Shown: positions 6,257-16,285 of the stretch, in pieces | How the letters are laid out: the number at the start of each line of letters is the position of its first letter | How positions within the stretch are numbered: the stretch's first letter is position 1 | Assembly (NCBI GenBank): GCA_946414395.1 | Contig: CAMKOE010000003.1 | Coordinates: 1-64,000 of the forward strand | Length of the DNA: 64,000 bases | Reading direction: 5' to 3' | Source: an uncultured Porphyromonadaceae bacterium | GTDB taxonomy: Bacteria; Bacteroidota; Bacteroidia; Bacteroidales; Muribaculaceae | Position numbers and translations under genes: made by a program | Notes under the pieces: generated by a model | The model's input: only the letters and a program-made list of their open reading frames with translations | What the model was told of the DNA's origin: nothing | The model's database searches: none

Positions 6257-8716
6257 ATGAAAAAAAGATTCCTTTTGGCAACTTTGGTTGCAATGGCGGG
6301 TGTTTTGGCTCATGCGCAGCAGACCATGTGGATCCACACGGGTCATGTGCACTGGGCCTACAACACCGAGGCGGTGGGCCAGATGCCGTACAGTTCGGCC
6401 AGTCTGCTCACCGTGCTTGAGAAGGGGTTCACGCTGGCCGATGTGGACAGTGTGACCGTCACTGGTGAGACATTTGCCGACGACAATATCCTTGTCAAGT
6501 ACAACAACACGATCGCCGACGTCTATGTGGCCGGCAACATTGCCAACCACATTACCGCCCAGGTGAACGGCGCACGCGTCGCCGTGATGCAGGACGACGC
6601 GGTAGCCACCGAGTACACCTACACCCTGCAGGGCTCCAGCAACAGCGGCTGCTTCTACCACGCGGGCAAATACAAGATGACGCTTGCGCTGAACGGCGTC
6701 AACCTGGTTAACCCCGACAGCGCCGCCATCAACATCCAGAACAGCAAGCGCATCGCCGTGCAACTCGTTGACGGCACGACCAACACGCTTGCCGACGGGG
6801 CTAACAACACCAAGAAGGCCGCCTTCCTGGTGAAGGGACATGCCGAGTTTGCCAAGGGCGGCTCGCTGACCATCACGGGTAACAAGAAGCACGCCCTGGC
6901 CTGCAACGAGTACATGGAGGTCAAGAAGACCGTGGGCAACATCACCATCACCAGTGCCGTTGCCGACGCCATCAACGTGTCGCAATACTTCCAGATGAAC
7001 GGTGGTACCGTCAACATCCAGAGTTGCGGTGACGACGGCATCCAGGTGGATGCCGAGGACACTGCCGACCCGACGCTCGACGGACACGTCCTGATTCAGG
7101 GCGGCTCGCTCACCATTAATGGCAGCGCCGATGCCACCAAGTGCATCAAGGCCGAGGGTGACGTGAACATCACTGGCGGCACATTGACGCTCAACCACAG
7201 CGGCACCGCCACCTGGGATGCCACCGACCTCAAGATCAAGGAGGCCACGGGCATCAGCAGCGACCGCAACATCACCATCAATGGTGACGCCGCCGTGGTC
7301 AACATCAAGATGACGGGCAACGGCACGCGCGGCATCAAGTGTGACAGCACCTTGACCGCCACCGCCGGCACCATCGACATCAACTGCTCGGGCGAGCCCT
7401 GGGCCTACGGCACAACCGACACGACCAACGTCAAGTGCGCCAAGGCCGACTATGCCTTTATCCTCAATGGCGCCAGCATGAAGTGCACCACCGTCAAGGA
7501 TGAGGCCGAGGGCATCCACAGCGAGGGCAAGGCCCTCATCAGTGGTGGCACGTTGACGCTCAACACCTATGACCACGGCATCAAGACCGACGGTGACATG
7601 GAAATCACTGGCGGTACCATCAACTTCACGATTACCGGTGCGGCCAGCAAGGCCATAAAGCCCACCGGCAACCTGCACATCACCGGCGGTAACATCAGTG
7701 GCACCGTGAGCGGCGGTGGCGAGACCTATGACGACAACACCGTTTCGGGCTCGGCCTGCATCAAGGGCAAAGCCAATGCAGTGATCGACGGCGGCACGTT
7801 AGACCTCAAAGCGACAGGTGCCGGCGGCAAGGGCATGAACTTTGACGGCACGCTGACCATCAACGACGGTAACATCAAGGCGAGCACCTCGGGTAGCAAA
7901 TACGGCACCAGCAGTGGCGGCGGCCAGGATCCTGGCGGCGGTTTTGGTCCCGGCGGTGGCGGCTGGGGAGGCCAAGAGGACAGCAATGCCGACACCAGTT
8001 CATCGCCCAAGGGCATCCGTGCCGAGGGTAACATTACCATCAACGGCGGCACCATCACCGTGAGCGCCACGGGTGGTGAGGGTGCCGAGGGCATTGAGTC
8101 CAAGTCCATCATGTACATCAAGGGCGGCTACATCGAGGTCACCAGTTATGATGACGCATTGAACAGCACCTCGCACATGTACTTCACTGGCGGCTACACC
8201 TATGCCGTGGCAACCGGCAACGATGCCATCGATTCCAACGGCAACATGTACCTGAGCGGCGGTTACGTCTTCTGCTGCGGCAGCGAGGAAGGTCTCGATG
8301 CCAACAGCGAGGGAGGCTACACCGTCTATATCCAGAACGGGGCCAACCTGATGGCCATCGGTGGCAACATGGGTGCCATCGAGAGCGGTGCCTCCTTGAG
8401 CCAGACGTGCTACTCCTGCACGGCCAGTGCCAACACCCGCTACTCGCTGAGCAGCAGCAACAGCGTCGTGATGGCAGTCCTCACTCCCACCTTCTCGTCA
8501 CAAGGCGGCCAGGGCGGCTGGGGCCCCGGCGGAGGTTCGTCATCGGGCTCCAGGACCATGGTAGTTTCGGCTCCGTCGTCACCGGCAGTCAAGTCGGGTG
8601 TCACCTTTGCCGGCACCACCATCTGGAACGGTATGGGTGCAACCAGCGCCACGGGCGGATCGACAGTCTCACTCAGCAACTACTCTGGTGGCGGTGGATA
8701 CGGTCCTGGCTTCTAA
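6257..8716 (+). CDS. Secreted carbohydrate-binding domain (Cthe_2159-like) beta-helix protein
   Basis: Signal peptide; repeated ITGGTLTL/NITINGG/KGIKCD rungs; DGTTNTLADGANNTKKAAFLVKGHAEF motif; Gly-rich linkers. Confidence 0.82.
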   Translation: MKKRFLLATLVAMAGVLAHAQQTMWIHTGHVHWAYNTEAVGQMPYSSASLLTVLEKGFTLADVDSVTVTGETFADDNILVKYNNTIADVYVAGNIANHITAQVNGARVAVMQDDAVATEYTYTLQGSSNSGCFYHAGKYKMTLALNGVNLVNPDSAAINIQNSKRIAVQLVDGTTNTLADGANNTKKAAFLVKGHAEFAKGGSLTITGNKKHALACNEYMEVKKTVGNITITSAVADAINVSQYFQMNGGTVNIQSCGDDGIQVDAEDTADPTLDGHVLIQGGSLTINGSADATKCIKAEGDVNITGGTLTLNHSGTATWDATDLKIKEATGISSDRNITINGDAAVVNIKMTGNGTRGIKCDSTLTATAGTIDINCSGEPWAYGTTDTTNVKCAKADYAFILNGASMKCTTVKDEAEGIHSEGKALISGGTLTLNTYDHGIKTDGDMEITGGTINFTITGAASKAIKPTGNLHITGGNISGTVSGGGETYDDNTVSGSACIKGKANAVIDGGTLDLKATGAGGKGMNFDGTLTINDGNIKASTSGSKYGTSSGGGQDPGGGFGPGGGGWGGQEDSNADTSSSPKGIRAEGNITINGGTITVSATGGEGAEGIESKSIMYIKGGYIEVTSYDDALNSTSHMYFTGGYTYAVATGNDAIDSNGNMYLSGGYVFCCGSEEGLDANSEGGYTVYIQNGANLMAIGGNMGAIESGASLSQTCYSCTASANTRYSLSSSNSVVMAVLTPTFSSQGGQGGWGPGGGSSSGSRTMVVSAPSSPAVKSGVTFAGTTIWNGMGATSATGGSTVSLSNYSGGGGYGPGF

Positions 8717-8770: not shown

Positions 8771-9202
8771 ATGAAGAAGACTATTATAACGATGCTTATC
8801 GCCATGGTGGCCATGGTTGCCAGCGCCGAGACCTATAGTTACTTGAAGTTCACCAAGTCCAATGGCACGACCGTGACCTGCTCGGTAGAGGGCATCAAGA
8901 TTACTTATGACAACAGCAACATCACTGTCACCAACGATGAGGGCACGACAACCATAGCCCTAGCCGACGTGCAGGACATGTACTTCAGCAACGAGGCTGG
9001 CACTACCCCCTCCTACAAGGTGGGTGATGTGAATGGTGATGGCAATGTGAACATCAGCGACGTTACTGCTTTGATCGACTACCTGCTGAGCGGCGATGCC
9101 AGCAGCATCAACACTGATGCCGCCAATCTCAACGGCGACGGCCTCGTGAACATCAGCGATGTGACCGCTCTCATCGACCTGATCTTGAGCGGCAACGCAT
9201 AG
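8771..9202 (+). CDS. Small secreted protein with C-terminal type I dockerin repeats
   Basis: MKKTIITMLIAMVAMVASAE signal peptide; GDVNGDGNVNISDVTALIDYLLSG ... NLNGDGLVNISDVTALIDLILSG duplicated Ca-binding dockerin motif. Confidence 0.87.
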   Translation: MKKTIITMLIAMVAMVASAETYSYLKFTKSNGTTVTCSVEGIKITYDNSNITVTNDEGTTTIALADVQDMYFSNEAGTTPSYKVGDVNGDGNVNISDVTALIDYLLSGDASSINTDAANLNGDGLVNISDVTALIDLILSGNA

Positions 9203-9237
9203 CAGCAAGTACACCTATTACCCATTCTCTCTCATGA

Positions 9238-9275
9238 TGAGGGTGCGCCCAGAACCGAGGCGCACCCTCATTTTC
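9238..9275 (+). terminator. Rho-independent-like terminator
   Basis: TGAGGGTGCGCC-cagaaccga-GGCGCACCCTCA followed by TTTTC. Confidence 0.75.
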
Positions 9276-9366
9276 ATGCCCACCTGAATATATTAGCGGC
9301 TTGGCGTGAGTTCAGGTCGCTGAATAGATGCTGCCAGAAGAAAAATTCTTAAAATATGTTAAATAA

Positions 9367-9399
9367 TTTGGTGGATTCAAATCTATTGTTATACCTTTG
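9367..9399 (+). promoter_or_regulatory. Promoter of the ABC/GntR operon
   Basis: TTTG (9367-9370) - 21 nt - TACCTTTG (9392-9399). Confidence 0.65.
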
Positions 9400-9400
9400 C

Positions 9401-9424
9401 AGTGTACTAGTTAAGTAGTACACT
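9401..9424. promoter_or_regulatory. Putative GntR/YtrA-type operator
   Basis: AGTGTACTA-GTTAAG-TAGTACACT, perfect 9-bp arms abutting the -7 box. Confidence 0.7.
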
Positions 9425-9464
9425 AGATAAGCATTTTATTAACCCGCTAAAATATCTGTCTATT

Positions 9465-10307
9465 ATGTTTAATTTCAATCAAATCAGTTTTGGCTACAAC
9501 AAGCGCACTGGAAATCTATTTCAGGATTTCTCGCTTGAATTGAATGCCGGTAACGTGTATGGCCTGCTGGGCAAGAACGGAGCCGGCAAGTCCACGCTCA
9601 TCTACCTGATGACGGGCCTGCTCACGCCTCAGGAGGGTGAGGTCACCATGGACGGCGTGAACGTGCGCCGCCGCCTGCCCCAGACGATGAGCGACATCTT
9701 CCTGGTTCCCGAGGAGTTTGAGTTGCCTCGCCTGAGCATCAAGCAGTATGTGAGCATCAACTCCCCGTTTTACCCTCGCTTCAGCATGGAAGACATGCAG
9801 CGTTACCTGGACATCTTTGAGATGGGCAGTGACATGGATCTGAAACTCCATTCACTGTCAATGGGCCAGAAGAAGAAAGTGTTCATGGCATTTGCCTTTG
9901 CCACCAACACCCGCGCCCTGATCATGGACGAGCCGACCAACGGCCTGGACATTCCCAGCAAAAGCCAATTCCGCAAACTCGTCACCACCGGCATGAACGA
10001 TGACAAACTGATGCTCATCTCGACCCATCAGGTGCGCGATATCAGTGACATTCTGGATCATGTGACCATCATCGACCAGAGCCGTGTGCTGCTCAACACC
10101 AGTTTTGCCGATGTGATGAGCAAGATTGCCTTCCGTCCGCTGAAAGAAGGCGACCAGCCGCTGTTCGTACTACAAAGCCCCTTCGGCCCGCTTGGCGCAA
10201 TCCGTGCCCAAGAAGGCGAAGAGACCAAAGTTGACCTGGAGATGCTGTTCAACGCCGCACTCCAGAACCCCGAGGCTATCAACCAATTATTCACCACCCA
10301 AAAATGA
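9465..10307 (+). CDS. ABC transporter ATP-binding protein
   Basis: Walker A GLLGKNGAGKSTL, LSMGQKKKV signature, ALIMDEPTNGLD Walker B. Confidence 0.93.
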   Translation: MFNFNQISFGYNKRTGNLFQDFSLELNAGNVYGLLGKNGAGKSTLIYLMTGLLTPQEGEVTMDGVNVRRRLPQTMSDIFLVPEEFELPRLSIKQYVSINSPFYPRFSMEDMQRYLDIFEMGSDMDLKLHSLSMGQKKKVFMAFAFATNTRALIMDEPTNGLDIPSKSQFRKLVTTGMNDDKLMLISTHQVRDISDILDHVTIIDQSRVLLNTSFADVMSKIAFRPLKEGDQPLFVLQSPFGPLGAIRAQEGEETKVDLEMLFNAALQNPEAINQLFTTQK

Positions 10308-11161
10308 ACACCACTATGAATACCTCAGTTAATCAAACATTCGACTGGAGCCGTTTCACGGCCGCCTTGCGCAAAGAAGTCATAGAGAACAAGCGCGCTT
10401 TACTGTTCACCGTCATCTGCATCTATGGCGTGCTCACACTGTTGATGATTCTTGGTAATCTGGTGACTGGCCTGAGTCCCGAATCTGCCATCGCAGCACT
10501 GGACGGCAAAATGCCTCAAGTATTCGTTGGCTCCATCTTCTCGCTGGCAGTTTGTGTTTCGGCATCAATGGCATTCAAGAACCTGACCACAAAGGCTGGC
10601 CGCACAACCATGATGACCTCGCCCTCGTCGACTCTGGAGAAGTTCCTGCTCAACATCCTGATCTATATAGTGGGAGTTTTTGTGGTGTACTTTGTTTGTG
10701 CCCAGTTGGCCGACCTTACCCGCATCGCCGCATTGTGGCTCTTCAGGAGCGAGGATTTCATTGTTCCTGGTCCCATCAATTTCCTGACCTGTTATTCGGA
10801 TATGAACAGCCATTACCCTGAATGGGCTGAAAATAGATTCGGTTGGTGTGTTTTCCTAGGCTTGATTTCCAATGCAGGATTGTATCTGCTGGGCAGTGTC
10901 ATCTGGCCCCGTCTGTCACTGCTCAAGACATTTGCCGCTGTCTATGCGATCGAGTTCACCCTGTTCATCATCGCAGCGCCCCTGTTCTACTTCTTCGGTG
11001 ACGGGGAGGCTTTGGCCGAGTGGTTTATCGGCTTCATCACGGGTGGCAAGTTCTCAATCAGCATGATTTGCATCACGGCCATCCAGGCGGTACTGTACTT
11101 CTCGCTCGCCTGGTACCTGTTCAAGCGCAAAGACGTCATTTCAATCAAGTGGTGGAAGTAA
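10304..11161 (+). CDS. ABC-2-like membrane permease
   Basis: Overlaps the ATPase by 4 nt; six predicted TM segments. Confidence 0.78.
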   Translation: MNTTMNTSVNQTFDWSRFTAALRKEVIENKRALLFTVICIYGVLTLLMILGNLVTGLSPESAIAALDGKMPQVFVGSIFSLAVCVSASMAFKNLTTKAGRTTMMTSPSSTLEKFLLNILIYIVGVFVVYFVCAQLADLTRIAALWLFRSEDFIVPGPINFLTCYSDMNSHYPEWAENRFGWCVFLGLISNAGLYLLGSVIWPRLSLLKTFAAVYAIEFTLFIIAAPLFYFFGDGEALAEWFIGFITGGKFSISMICITAIQAVLYFSLAWYLFKRKDVISIKWWK

Positions 11162-11185
11162 CACATTATAAAACAGAATAGAATC

Positions 11186-11548
11186 ATGAATTTCAAGGAT
11201 AATAAAGCGATTTATCTGCAGATTGCAGACCGCATTGGTGATCAGATTCTCGCGGGGTCACTGCCCCCCGACGGCAAGGTGCCCAGCGTGCGTGAACTCG
11301 CCGCCGAGATTGAGGTCAACGCCAACACCGTAGCGCGCACCTACGACCACCTGCAGCACATCGGCGTCATCTATACCAAGCGAGGACTTGGATACTTCGT
11401 CAGCCCTGACGCCAGGGATACCATCGTCAGCCGCCGCCGCGAGCAACTGATGCAGGGCGAGATGGACTACTACCTGGGCCAACTCAAGGCCGTGGGTATC
11501 ACCCCCAGCGAACTCCATCAGATCTACAGCGATTACCTCGCCAAGTAA
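11186..11548 (+). CDS. GntR family transcriptional regulator (YtrA-like)
   Basis: IYLQIADRIGDQILAGSLPPDGKVPSVRELAAEIEVNANTVARTYDHLQHIGVIYTKRGLGYFV. Confidence 0.93.
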   Translation: MNFKDNKAIYLQIADRIGDQILAGSLPPDGKVPSVRELAAEIEVNANTVARTYDHLQHIGVIYTKRGLGYFVSPDARDTIVSRRREQLMQGEMDYYLGQLKAVGITPSELHQIYSDYLAK

Positions 11549-11549
11549 T

Positions 11550-11670
11550 CATCCGCCCTCAAGCCGAATAGCCAACTGATTATAATAGCCTACGAATTAA
11601 TCGAATGAAACGAATTTCTGAAAATCATGAGGGCGGATGCCAATTCGATGAATTCGGTTAATTCGTAGGC
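11550..11670. repeat. Interlocked pair of inverted repeats (A-B-A'-B')
   Basis: A CATCCGCCCTCA 11550-11561 / A' TGAGGGCGGATG 11628-11639; B GCCTACGAATTAATCGAAT 11588-11606 / B' ATTCGGTTAATTCGTAGGC 11652-11670 (one mismatch). Confidence 0.75.
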
Positions 11671-11688
11671 ATTAAAAAATGTAAGATT

Positions 11689-11775
11689 ATGGAACAGCAA
11701 GCACTTGTAGCAACGGCGACTGTGGCCATCATCGCCATTGTCTCGCTCATTACCCGCATTATCATCTCTCATTGA
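11689..11775 (+). CDS. Putative 28-aa single-TM microprotein (paralogue of 12645-12737)
   Basis: MEQQALVATATVAIIAIVSLITRIIISH; same pattern as the second microORF; both preceded by AAGATT. Confidence 0.62.
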   Translation: MEQQALVATATVAIIAIVSLITRIIISH

Positions 11776-11797
11776 AACCTCTAAAAAAACCGGTACA

Positions 11798-12445
11798 ATG
11801 AAAAAGCAATCATTATACCTCACAATCATGACGCTTGTTGCCGCCATCACGTTGTCATCTTGCAGCAAGCAGCAAGACAAGAGCGAAACTGAGGTTCCCC
11901 TAAAGGTCACTTACACCCTGGACTGCTCAAGGGACCTGCTTAACCTGTGCGACCTTGTTGTCACCTATAAAGGCGACGATGGCGCCAATGCCATCGACAC
12001 CATCACAGCCACACCCGGCGACACGACCGAGGTACAGACGTGGACCACGGTGGTCGAGACTCACCAGATTCCTGTAAAAATCGGCTTCGATTACAACCTT
12101 GTACCGAAGACCGACTCTCTGGTTATCAGCCAGCCCACCGCGACGCTCCATGCCTTATGCACCATCATTGCCGAAAAAATCGGTGTCAGGAAGAGAACAC
12201 CCCTGCCCAGTGAAAAAGTCATCAACAGCAAGTACATCTTCTTTACATCCCACAACATGATGGATGCCAAGGTCCGCAACACCCCCCGCAACCTAGCCAA
12301 CTTCATCAAGAACCATAACGACAGCCTGGCCACCAGCCGCGAGGTGGCCGATGACGTCAGCAACACTTGCTTTGTCGTCAGGAAGCATCCCTATGGCAGC
12401 GGCCTGCTGGTCCAGAAAGCCCGCTGGAACGACAATGCCAAGTGA
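11798..12445 (+). CDS. Hypothetical lipoprotein
   Basis: Lipobox ITLSSCSKQ; start MKKQSLYLTIMTLVAA. Confidence 0.7.
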   Translation: MKKQSLYLTIMTLVAAITLSSCSKQQDKSETEVPLKVTYTLDCSRDLLNLCDLVVTYKGDDGANAIDTITATPGDTTEVQTWTTVVETHQIPVKIGFDYNLVPKTDSLVISQPTATLHALCTIIAEKIGVRKRTPLPSEKVINSKYIFFTSHNMMDAKVRNTPRNLANFIKNHNDSLATSREVADDVSNTCFVVRKHPYGSGLLVQKARWNDNAK

Positions 12446-12473
12446 GATCCCAGCCCGTCGTGGGGTGAGAAGT

Positions 12474-12513
12474 TGTCTAAAAAATAGACAGTGTTCTGTC
12501 TAAAATTTAGACA
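12474..12513. promoter_or_regulatory. Two tandem dyad operators
   Basis: TGTCTA-AAAAA-TAGACA (12474-12490) and TGTCTAAA-A-TTTAGACA (12497-12513), centres 23 bp apart, upstream of TACTTTTG at 12562-12569. Confidence 0.7.
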
Positions 12514-12644
12514 ATTTCTCATATTGGATGAAAAATAATTGGAGGGAAACTTGCGACAGACTACTTTTGCAGTGAAACAAGGAGGCCATCGGCCTCTTGA
12601 AGAATTAATTAAGGAAAAATTAACCACAATAAAAAAGCAAGATT

Positions 12645-12737
12645 ATGAAACCTCAAGCATTTATCGCCTCGGCCACCGTGATTGCTGTCGCCATCTTCAC
12701 CCTGCTGAACATCATCATCACGCATGGCAGCCTGTGA
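12645..12737 (+). CDS. Putative 30-aa single-TM microprotein (paralogue of 11689-11775)
   Basis: MKPQAFIASATVIAVAIFTLLNIIITHGSL; promoter box TACTTTTG upstream. Confidence 0.65.
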   Translation: MKPQAFIASATVIAVAIFTLLNIIITHGSL

Positions 12738-12788
12738 AGACAGCCGCTCGACAATAACGACATCCAGTAACTCCAATATTTATCTATT

Positions 12789-13196
12789 ATGATTACAGAC
12801 AACAAAACATTGATCCTGGCCCTCAAAATCATGGGAGGAATCATGATGACCGCCACAGTGGGCACGTGGATATGCCTATTTGCCGGCAAAGCGCTGGGAA
12901 CAACCCTTGTCTCAAACGTAGCGTGGACCAGGGCCTGCGGCATCTGTGGTCTGGCACTCTGGGAAATTGGCACCGTCATGAACAAGATGGGGGTGCACGG
13001 CAATGGCATCTCGCGCCGTCGTGGCATGATCAGCACTGCGCTGATGGCACTTGGCGCTATCCTGTCGGCCATCGCCATCCTGGCAGTCTCGTTCAATTGG
13101 CTATTCTGGCTGGCAACGGGACTTTTCTTCATTGGCCTTATCATCGGTCAAGCCGACGATTTCGCATCGTCATCAGCAAGTAATAACAACTCTTGA
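12789..13196 (+). CDS. Hypothetical integral membrane protein
   Basis: Several hydrophobic segments; ATG at 12789; colinear with neighbours. Confidence 0.7.
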   Translation: MITDNKTLILALKIMGGIMMTATVGTWICLFAGKALGTTLVSNVAWTRACGICGLALWEIGTVMNKMGVHGNGISRRRGMISTALMALGAILSAIAILAVSFNWLFWLATGLFFIGLIIGQADDFASSSASNNNS

Positions 13197-13227
13197 CAAT
13201 CAAATAACCCATAAAAACTTAATAGCA

Positions 13228-14610
13228 ATGAAAAAACCAAGTTTTAAATCGATGATTGGCCTTGCCATCATGATGGTGGCAAGCCTCAGCAACGTAACTC
13301 ACGGCCAGGACTTCAACGGCACGTGGGAGGGCACCGTGGAGGCAGGCGTTTATTCACTGACACTGGTGTTCCACATTGAGCAGACCGACCAAGGCGTCAC
13401 CTTCACGTGGGATTCACCCGACCAGGACGCATTCAACTTGCCGGCAACTGCCACCATCACAGGCAACGAACTGGATGTGGACATTCCAGACGCCTATGCC
13501 AAGTACAAGGGTACGTTGGAAGGCAACACGCTGGACGGTGTATTCACCCAAATGGGGACCAACTTTCCCCTGCGCTTGACCCGCAAGGTGGGCAAGGACG
13601 ACAACAACCGTCGTCCCCAGGAAGCCGCCATCGAGGCCGACAACAACAAGCCCTATCATGCCGAGGAGGTGACCTTCACCAACGACGGCATCACCTTTGC
13701 CGGCACACTGACCTTGCCCAACAGCGGCAACCATTTCCCGGCTGTGGTGCTGATTGCCGGATCTGGTCCACATGACCGCAATGAGGAAGTCTTTGGCCAC
13801 AAGCCGTTCCTGCTGCTGGCCGATGCGTTGAGCCGCAACGGATTTGCCGTGCTGCGCTATGACGAGCGTGGCGTGGGTGCCACGGTCGGCGGCAACCCGC
13901 TTGCTCCCACCGAACCGCTGGCTACCGACGCCATGGCTGCCCTGCGATACCTCAAGACCCGTCCCGAGGTGGATGCCACACGCGCGGGCCTGATGGGCCA
14001 CAGCGAGGGCGGCATGATCGCCATCATGAACGCAGCCAAGCACCCTGACGAAGTCCCCTTCATCGTGTCGCTGGCAGGAACTGGCGTTGATGGCGTTGAA
14101 CTGGGCATGCAGCAAGTCAGGCTGATGAATAAAGCCATGGGCAAGGATCCCGATTCAGCAGTTCTGCGATTGAATGAGGAACTGTTCAAGATCATCGCTG
14201 CCGAGAAAGATTCTGTCACGTTGCGCAACAAGATGATTGCCTTTTATCAGAGCCATCCCGAACAACTGGAAGAATTAGGAGACAAGATGACCATCGACCA
14301 ACTTGTGGACATGACACTCATCACGAGTTGCATCTTCCAGTATGACCCCACCGAGAACCTCAAGCGCGTCAAGTGTCCCATGCTCGCCATCAACGGCACG
14401 CTGGATGCCCAAGTGGCCTGTGAGGAGAACCTGGGCGCCATCAAGCGGCTCGTGCCGCACGCCACGGTCAAGCCCTATGAGGGACTGAACCACTTCTTCC
14501 AGACGTGCAGCGGATGGGTGGGCAGCACACAGTATGCCGTCATCCGCGAGACAATGGCGCCCCAGGTGCTGGAGGATATCGTCAACTGGCTGCAAGACGT
14601 CACCCGCTAA
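13228..14610 (+). CDS. Secreted alpha/beta hydrolase
   Basis: Start MKKPSFKSMIGL; GSGPHDRNE, nucleophile elbow GLMGHSEGGMIA, C-terminal GLNHFFQ. Confidence 0.88.
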   Translation: MKKPSFKSMIGLAIMMVASLSNVTHGQDFNGTWEGTVEAGVYSLTLVFHIEQTDQGVTFTWDSPDQDAFNLPATATITGNELDVDIPDAYAKYKGTLEGNTLDGVFTQMGTNFPLRLTRKVGKDDNNRRPQEAAIEADNNKPYHAEEVTFTNDGITFAGTLTLPNSGNHFPAVVLIAGSGPHDRNEEVFGHKPFLLLADALSRNGFAVLRYDERGVGATVGGNPLAPTEPLATDAMAALRYLKTRPEVDATRAGLMGHSEGGMIAIMNAAKHPDEVPFIVSLAGTGVDGVELGMQQVRLMNKAMGKDPDSAVLRLNEELFKIIAAEKDSVTLRNKMIAFYQSHPEQLEELGDKMTIDQLVDMTLITSCIFQYDPTENLKRVKCPMLAINGTLDAQVACEENLGAIKRLVPHATVKPYEGLNHFFQTCSGWVGSTQYAVIRETMAPQVLEDIVNWLQDVTR

Positions 14611-14644
14611 TCAATGAAAACCATTTAATCATAACTTCCTAGTC

Positions 14645-16285
14645 ATGACAACTCTTAAATCCATCTTTTCCAAGAACTTGTCGGTTCTCACACTGGCACT
14701 GGCGATTGCTGCCAATTGTGCCAATGCCCAAATACCCAACGACTCGATTGTGGCCGACTTTAACGAGTTTGTCAGGCTGCTCGAGGAGACGCACCCCGAT
14801 CCCTACTCCAACTACGGGGGCAGGCCGTTCTTCCGCAAGGCGGCCATGGAGACCCGCTTCGGGCTCGCGATGGACTCGGTGACGACCGCCGATGAACTGG
14901 CAAATCGCATCCGCGAATTCCTTGCCCCGTTGCAGGACGGACACACGGGCGTCCGCAGCCAGCAGGGCCCCGATCACAAGTTTCTGGCTCCCATCATGTT
15001 TGAGGCCATCAATGACGGCATTATCATCTCGCGCCTGCCCGACGAATACAAGGACTACATCGGCAGTCGCCTGCTGGCCATCGAGAATGTGCCTGTCAAG
15101 GAGGTCTGCGACGGTCTGGCCAAGCATTACACTGCCGAGAACGAGATTGGCAAGATGCTCCTGGTGTGCTATCGCGGCATGCAGCCCGTCACACTGCGCA
15201 AGGTGATTCCCAGCGTGGGGGATGAATACATCACCTACCAGGTGGAGACTCCCAAGGGCAAGCGCACGGACCTGAAGTTGCCGCTCATGCCGGTCGAGCA
15301 AGCGCGCCAATGGTATGCCGCCCAGCAGCACACGGTGACCAAGGCCAATTTCCCCGACAAGGACTTGACCTATGACTTCGTGGGCAAGGGCAAGAACACA
15401 ATGTACCTGAAACTGCAGAGCATCATGGCCCGCGACTGCTTTGAGTACATGCAGTCCAACGGATGGAACTATCAGGAACAACTCCAGCGGATGTATAATG
15501 CCCGGGGCGAAGAAATGCCCGCCGACCCCAAGCAGGCCATCGCCCAGATACCATCCTTCAGCGAGGAATTTGAGAAAATGCTCCAGTTGATGAAGCAGAA
15601 CCGCAGCAAGAACCTGATTATCGACCTGCGCGGCAATGACGGTGGCTTCACGCCCATCACCCTGCCCACGCTGTACCAGATGTGGGGTGACAGGTATATT
15701 AAGGAAATGGGCGGTTTTGAGACCGAGTTCTACACGATGATCTCACCGCTGCTGGCAAAGAAATACAATGCAAGCCTGGAAGATATCAACCGGGAGTCTC
15801 CCGTGCCCATCCTCTATGGTGACTACCAGTACTCAAACAAGCGACAGGAAGTGCCCGAGGTTACCGAGCAGTACCGCAACAGGGTCATCAGCCAGATGAT
15901 GAGCAGCGTCAAGGACAAACTCATGGCGCAGAACGGCCAGCCCGTCTATACGCCCGAGCATGTGTATGTGCTGACCGACCCAGGCACCTTCAGTGCAGCC
16001 TTCCATTACGCGTTCTACCTGTCCAAGATGGGTGCCACCATCGTGGGCGTCACCTGCAGCCAGGCTCCCAACACATACATGGAAATGACACCGTTTGAAC
16101 TGCCACGCACTGGGCTGAAAGGCTCCATCTCCAACTCGCTGCAGTTGTTCCTGCCGGTGGATGACCCAAGGGCCCACGATTTCACGCCCGACCTGATGCC
16201 CACCTATGAGGACTACAAGCGCTACAACTTTGACGACAACACCATCCCCATGTACCTGATGGACGTCATCGATGGCAAGCGATAG
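14645..16285 (+). CDS. S41-family peptidase-like protein
   Basis: Signal peptide; LIIDLRGNDGG; VYVLTDPGTFSAAFHYAFYLSKMGATIVGV. Confidence 0.75.
   Translation: MTTLKSIFSKNLSVLTLALAIAANCANAQIPNDSIVADFNEFVRLLEETHPDPYSNYGGRPFFRKAAMETRFGLAMDSVTTADELANRIREFLAPLQDGHTGVRSQQGPDHKFLAPIMFEAINDGIIISRLPDEYKDYIGSRLLAIENVPVKEVCDGLAKHYTAENEIGKMLLVCYRGMQPVTLRKVIPSVGDEYITYQVETPKGKRTDLKLPLMPVEQARQWYAAQQHTVTKANFPDKDLTYDFVGKGKNTMYLKLQSIMARDCFEYMQSNGWNYQEQLQRMYNARGEEMPADPKQAIAQIPSFSEEFEKMLQLMKQNRSKNLIIDLRGNDGGFTPITLPTLYQMWGDRYIKEMGGFETEFYTMISPLLAKKYNASLEDINRESPVPILYGDYQYSNKRQEVPEVTEQYRNRVISQMMSSVKDKLMAQNGQPVYTPEHVYVLTDPGTFSAAFHYAFYLSKMGATIVGVTCSQAPNTYMEMTPFELPRTGLKGSISNSLQLFLPVDDPRAHDFTPDLMPTYEDYKRYNFDDNTIPMYLMDVIDGKR

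Follow-up and report, generated by a model that had tools for sequence, protein, structure and literature searches.

A genus-restricted family of predicted single-helix microproteins beside a YtrA-type ABC transporter operon in uncultured Bacteroidales

Introduction

YtrA-type ABC operons are common. In Bacillus subtilis, the YtrA operator has the form AGTGTA-13bp-TACACT, and the ytr operon encodes, upstream of ytrA, a small membrane protein of 45 residues, YtrG, to which no function has been assigned (PMC8060467, PMC12772383). Operons consisting of an ABC ATPase, a permease, a GntR regulator and a membrane-anchored Toastrack protein have also been reported (PMC11237479). In the Pmt system of Staphylococcus aureus, phenol-soluble modulins (PSMs) release the YtrA-subfamily regulator PmtR from DNA (PMC5080381). 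Short single-helix proteins that act on a transporter include AcrZ, MgtS and LucB (review PMC10710835).

In this study, we analyzed a locus in which two microprotein ORFs, here called class A and class B, lie downstream of an ABC-GntR operon. YtrG is the nearest precedent, although class A has 28 residues and follows GntR, whereas YtrG has 45 residues and its gene is upstream of ytrA; the likeness rests on size and gene context taken from the papers rather than on sequence. Toastrack (DUF2807-type) operons have the same ATPase, permease and GntR with a membrane-anchored partner, an arrangement seen in other Bacteroidales. In those systems the partner has an extracytoplasmic domain, whereas here it is a helix without one: neither peptide matched DUF2807 in Pfam, and both are too short for the domain. 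AcrZ, MgtS and LucB share the short single-helix form, which is here predicted from the genes, but act on different transporters and have different sequences.

Results

The window is the whole stretch of DNA analyzed, 64,000 nucleotides from an uncultured Muribaculaceae bacterium (GCA_946414395.1, contig CAMKOE010000003.1, positions 1 to 64,000). A sequence-only reading had proposed two paralogous membrane microproteins of 28 and 30 aa, ending 22 nt before a lipoprotein gene and 51 nt before a multi-TM gene, respectively. The ORFs, their coordinates and lengths, and both gaps (to the ATG at 11798 and the ATG at 12789) were confirmed in the sequence. The features of the locus are as follows.

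9367-9400, + strand: promoter of the ABC operon, TTTGG (-33) and TATACCTTTGC (-7, from 9390); consensus match, also conserved upstream of the ATPase gene in the relatives compared
9401-9424, + strand: palindrome AGTGTACTAGTTAAGTAGTACACT, proposed GntR operator, directly after the -7 box
9465-10307, + strand: ABC transporter ATPase (Pfam ABC_tran, E 2e-26)
10304-11161, + strand: ABC permease, conserved cluster c4 in relatives
11186-11548, + strand: GntR regulator, 120 aa, YtrA-like in size and match (Pfam GntR, E 2e-13)
11588-11670, no strand assigned: dispersed hairpin repeat between GntR and class A, 29-nt arms, 86% complementary
11689-11775, + strand: class A microprotein MEQQALVATATVAIIAIVSLITRIIISH, 28 aa, member of the same-genus family
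11798-12445, + strand: lipoprotein of cluster c3, neighbour only, lipobox-like start MKKQSLYLTIMTLVAAITLSSC
12474-12490, + strand: putative operator 1, TGTCTAAAAAATAGACA, from sequence
12497-12513, + strand: putative operator 2, TGTCTAAAATTTAGACA, from sequence
12562-12570, + strand: -7 box TACTTTTGC of the class B promoter, consensus match
12580-12598, + strand: short 5'-leader hairpin (GGAGGCCATCGGCCTC), predicted fold, leader z-score -2.1
12645-12737, + strand: class B microprotein MKPQAFIASATVIAVAIFTLLNIIITHGSL, 30 aa, found by the family profile, predicted helix 3-28
12789-13196, + strand: 135-aa multi-helix membrane protein, neighbour only; no Pfam match, and in relatives not always next to the family

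The two peptides were 52% identical, with E = 0.146 in a search of their own genome. By itself the pair appeared marginal, and the relatives removed the doubt. A profile built from both peptides found intact homologues in same-genus genomes with E values down to 2e-12, and a single-sequence search agreed. The claimed paralogy is therefore borne out, as is the expectation of homologues in other genomes. Searches of Pfam, NCBIfam, PHROGs, PADLOC and PDB profiles gave no relative of either peptide, and the two ORFs were indeed unannotated and below the usual ORF cut-offs. They were the only family copies found in the source genome (2.63 Mb, 78 contigs, 81% complete). An AAGATT-ATG context had also been pointed out. 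It does precede both ORFs, and T occupied position -1 in 29/29 and position -2 in 25/29 of the family copies examined. However, AAGATT-ATG was rejected as a special signal because TT before ATG is ordinary locally, being the commonest dinucleotide there in the surrounding conserved genes (135/387).

Further subclasses, class C (METQ.CIVTITMIAIAIIT) and class D (MKQQAFLFSLTVIAIIVFT), emerged from refined profiles. Of the 101 same-genus genomes, about 37 carried one or more credible copies; the profile search gives 38 genomes at E <= 0.05, a few being doubtful, and does not catch all class D copies. The class A records that bear a name were metagenome-assembled genomes (MAGs) with the labels Muribaculaceae, Prevotellaceae or Bacteroidales, and several came from ruminants. 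Several paralogues occurred in some genomes. An order-wide profile search of 394 genomes gave no convincing match outside the genus. The best out-of-genus match (L109) was put down to chance on an informal reading of the sequence around it. As far as these searches reach, the microprotein family is real, conserved and confined to one genus of bacteria from the ruminant gut.

The coding evidence came from about 30 distinct strong copies, for which pN/pS was about 0.5 and the JC-corrected median dN/dS about 0.38. Differences at codon positions 1, 2 and 3 were 0.38, 0.15 and 0.46, respectively; codons for hydrophobic residues have T in the middle, so part of the constraint at position 2 reflects only that the helix stays hydrophobic. 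These values indicate that the family is under moderate purifying selection. Frameshifts between strains had been named as evidence against the proposal. One class B copy (G086, L060:10756) was frameshifted and for that reason looks dispensable in that genome.

Family members have 26-36 residues and are predicted to be single-helix membrane proteins, each with one transmembrane (TM) helix in fewer than about 50 residues, which supports the earlier membrane-protein claim. AlphaFold2 modelled the class B peptide as a single helix at 3-28 with a mean pLDDT of 93. Both helices were uniformly hydrophobic (hydrophobic moment 0.17 and 0.19, mean hydrophobicity about 0.76), and by hydrophobic moment neither peptide forms an amphipathic helix.

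Class A follows GntR in nearly every genome that has class A, which agrees with the proposed linkage to the GntR/ABC operon. The order in relatives was ATPase, permease, GntR and class A, the last mostly about 100 nt past GntR (range 20-177 nt); in a few genomes a lipoprotein gene lay between GntR and class A. Among ORFs picked mechanically in the relatives, the gene after strong class A or B copies was a lipoprotein in 12 cases, an M16 peptidase in 8 and a hydrolase in 4, with others in the rest. The cluster c3 lipoprotein was missing after class A in many relatives. Because the upstream order is constant and the downstream gene varies, class A is best seen, on gene order, as the tail of the ABC-GntR operon. 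Thus the proposal that each microprotein heads a two-gene unit did not hold for class A, and held for class B, which has its own promoter and operators. Cluster c3 itself (L040-L079) comprises lipoproteins of about 200 aa that match no Pfam family and are encoded by tandem duplicates. A protein with a Cthe_2159-type carbohydrate-binding domain lies upstream of the ABC operon (6257-8716 in the window) and occurs in many relatives.

The hairpin at 11588-11670 had a fold z-score of -4.4. It belongs to a REP-like repeat (TACGAATTACGCGAATT ... AATTCGCGTAATTCGTA) with 0-4 copies per genome by a strict pattern, also present in some loci that lack the class A peptide. Similar copies lie elsewhere, and the hairpin was set aside as a specific regulatory element of class A. 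An Rfam scan of 9000-14700 gave no family above the gathering score; one sub-threshold miRNA match was treated as chance.

The operon encodes a short (120-aa) GntR beside an ABC ATPase and permease, and its promoter carries a long palindromic candidate operator. This palindrome, AGTGTA-N12-TACACT, was the sole match within the window, was conserved across the genus, and has a spacer one base shorter than that of the B. subtilis YtrA site, AGTGTA-13bp-TACACT (PMC8060467). Since a YtrA-type palindrome sits at the operon promoter, the operon is probably repressed by its own GntR protein. Of the 101 same-genus genomes, 73 have the GntR gene. The NCBIfam matches of GntR include the YtrA-subfamily regulator PmtR, and those of the ATPase include PmtA, both below cut-off; the library matches of these two proteins are to broad families, from which the substrate is not identifiable. 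The permease had no Pfam match. Its AlphaFold2 model (pLDDT 78) showed a weak resemblance to ABC-2 permeases such as NosY, the top PDB match having E = 0.09 and a TM-score of about 0.45.

We then compared what occupies the position after GntR. A stand-alone TM ORF of 18-40 aa was found at 36 of 73 same-genus GntR positions versus 24 of 607 control 3' ends, the controls being drawn from the other genes of those loci, with some matches that are themselves family members. Fisher's test gave p = 8e-24, a value that ignores relatedness, overstates the case, and is inflated because the ORF criteria (length, hydrophobicity cut-off and search range) were set after the pattern was seen. The useful part of this comparison is the size of the difference, not the p-value. 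These ORFs include sequences unlike class A, e.g., MFVPVILATLVAMACAAAAC. Five genomes without a post-GntR ORF had 21-26-aa TM ORFs of the type MV[IT]VS between the permease and GntR (L163, L171, L172, L173 and L192). A detectable microprotein was missing from many genomes that have the ABC-GntR operon; the genomes compared were mostly MAGs, in which an absent copy may reflect assembly loss. In two loci (L158, L160) the post-GntR spot was occupied by the signal peptide of a hydrolase, and in two others (L165, L185) by a similar stand-alone ORF of 26 aa.

Among 69 loci from other genera, about half, by our own count, had a longer protein bearing an N-terminal membrane anchor at this position; DUF2807 was above cut-off in two of 12 such proteins and weak or absent in the rest (Pfam). 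Ten of the 69 had a stand-alone TM microprotein of 27-34 aa after GntR, in six families. Comparison with shuffled sequences gave no similarity between class A and the microproteins of other families beyond composition, except for L183, which is within the genus. The equivalence between them is positional.

Class B, as far as its sequence tells, starts a unit under its own promoter and operators. By our own count, and allowing up to 3 mismatches, eighteen family copies had one or two upstream 17-bp operators of the form TGTnnAAAAnTTAGACA. Two operators with starts 23 nt apart were present in 14 copies, and 13 of these 14 had a recognised -7 box, TAnnTTTG, whose start lay 65 or 66 nt past the second operator. 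In the window, the class B -7 box lies 65-66 nt from operator 2, the same distance as in relatives. Among the eighteen is a copy about 210 nt downstream of GntR (G061, L059). The remaining copies at the post-GntR position had no 17-bp operator, nor had several copies elsewhere. Twin sites in other parts of the genomes lie before M16 and S41 peptidase genes, before genes that encode other secreted proteins, and before small membrane-protein genes, and several lack a clear target gene. These twin TTAGACA operators recur (e.g., G000:C17:32814-32843) as an unnamed regulon, for which the literature searched named no regulator.

A NatAB-like ABC transporter follows the class C copies (L042:11476, L062:17035 and similar), and a MacB-like transporter follows those of class D (L066, L070 and L073), in each case 100-400 nt away. 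The link to these transporters is one of proximity only.

Discussion

We believed that the microproteins have about an even chance of being small accessory or regulatory partners of the YtrA-type transporter. The earlier suggestion that they may regulate it is plausible. This reading draws on the intact ORFs across the genus, the dN/dS, and the confident, non-amphipathic helix. It draws also on the constant place after ATPase, permease and GntR, the YtrA-type operator, and the excess of TM ORFs after GntR. The six other families with a TM microprotein there, the precedent of YtrG, and the paralogues near NatAB-type and MacB-type transporters point the same way. It is weakened by the absence of similarity to other families' microproteins beyond composition, by the many ABC-GntR genomes with no detectable microprotein, by the frameshifted class B copy, and by the 100-400 nt that separate classes C and D from the next transporter gene.

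Under the partner reading, the family would consist of single-pass inner-membrane microproteins. Class A would be the last gene of an operon of ATPase, permease, GntR and microprotein, repressed by its own GntR. It would act on the transporter of that operon and fill the place of the membrane-anchored protein in many other Bacteroidales. Class B and similar copies would be duplicates that have a promoter of their own and answer to a separate control by twin operators, common to some envelope and secreted-peptidase genes, so that the helper could be made under another signal. The sequence analysis itself establishes the family with its coding signature, its gene position, the two operator arrangements and the repeated occurrence of TM microproteins after GntR. 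We infer that the peptides are translated and located in the membrane, that GntR binds its site, and that the microprotein contacts the permease and may affect it.

The strongest rival, in view of the fast divergence of the sequences and the frameshift in one class B copy, is that the ORFs are the leftover membrane anchor of the protein found after GntR in other genera, or proto-genes that arose from signal-peptide-like sequence, and in either case have little function or none. The proteins with an N-terminal anchor at this position elsewhere, the hydrolase signal peptides in L158 and L160, and the similar stand-alone ORFs in L165 and L185 also favour it. However, the family is under purifying selection, and it is duplicated, with dedicated promoters and rigid operator spacing that a relic should not need. 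We regard this explanation as rather unlikely.

An exported or effector peptide is improbable. The microproteins would then be leaderless substrates of the transporter, or GntR ligands that relieve repression as PSMs do with PmtR. The S. aureus system likewise combines a YtrA-subfamily GntR, an ABC transporter and short leaderless peptides (PMC5080381); the below-cut-off PmtR and PmtA matches and the M16 peptidase genes nearby agree with this. In contrast to PSMs, the helices here are uniformly hydrophobic rather than amphipathic, one class is encoded within the operon, and the position elsewhere holds membrane-anchored proteins.

Leader ORFs that act in cis on the following gene, through translation coupling or attenuation, would fit the short gaps of 22 and 51 nt in the window. 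We consider them very improbable, since the next gene and the gap vary among genomes and the peptide is conserved over its full length, with synonymous codon changes. The small membrane toxin of a toxin-antitoxin pair, suggested by the size, the single hydrophobic helix and the several paralogues in some genomes, has the slightest probability of all, given no PHROGs or PADLOC match, no Rfam family above the gathering score in 9000-14700, and the stable position in a chromosomal transporter operon.

A wider version of the partner reading is possible, though doubtful: a TM microprotein may be a general, fast-evolving part of YtrA-type ABC operons across Bacteroidales, in which a bare anchor helix works, the extracytoplasmic domain is optional, and this genus has copied the helper into a second regulon. 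If a bare TM helix does recur at this operon position, it would be a candidate minimal partner of such transporters. If true, hydrophobic ORFs of 20-34 residues beside such GntR genes would give a simple rule for finding missed genes, and in the copies with their own promoter the helper would be naturally uncoupled from its operon.
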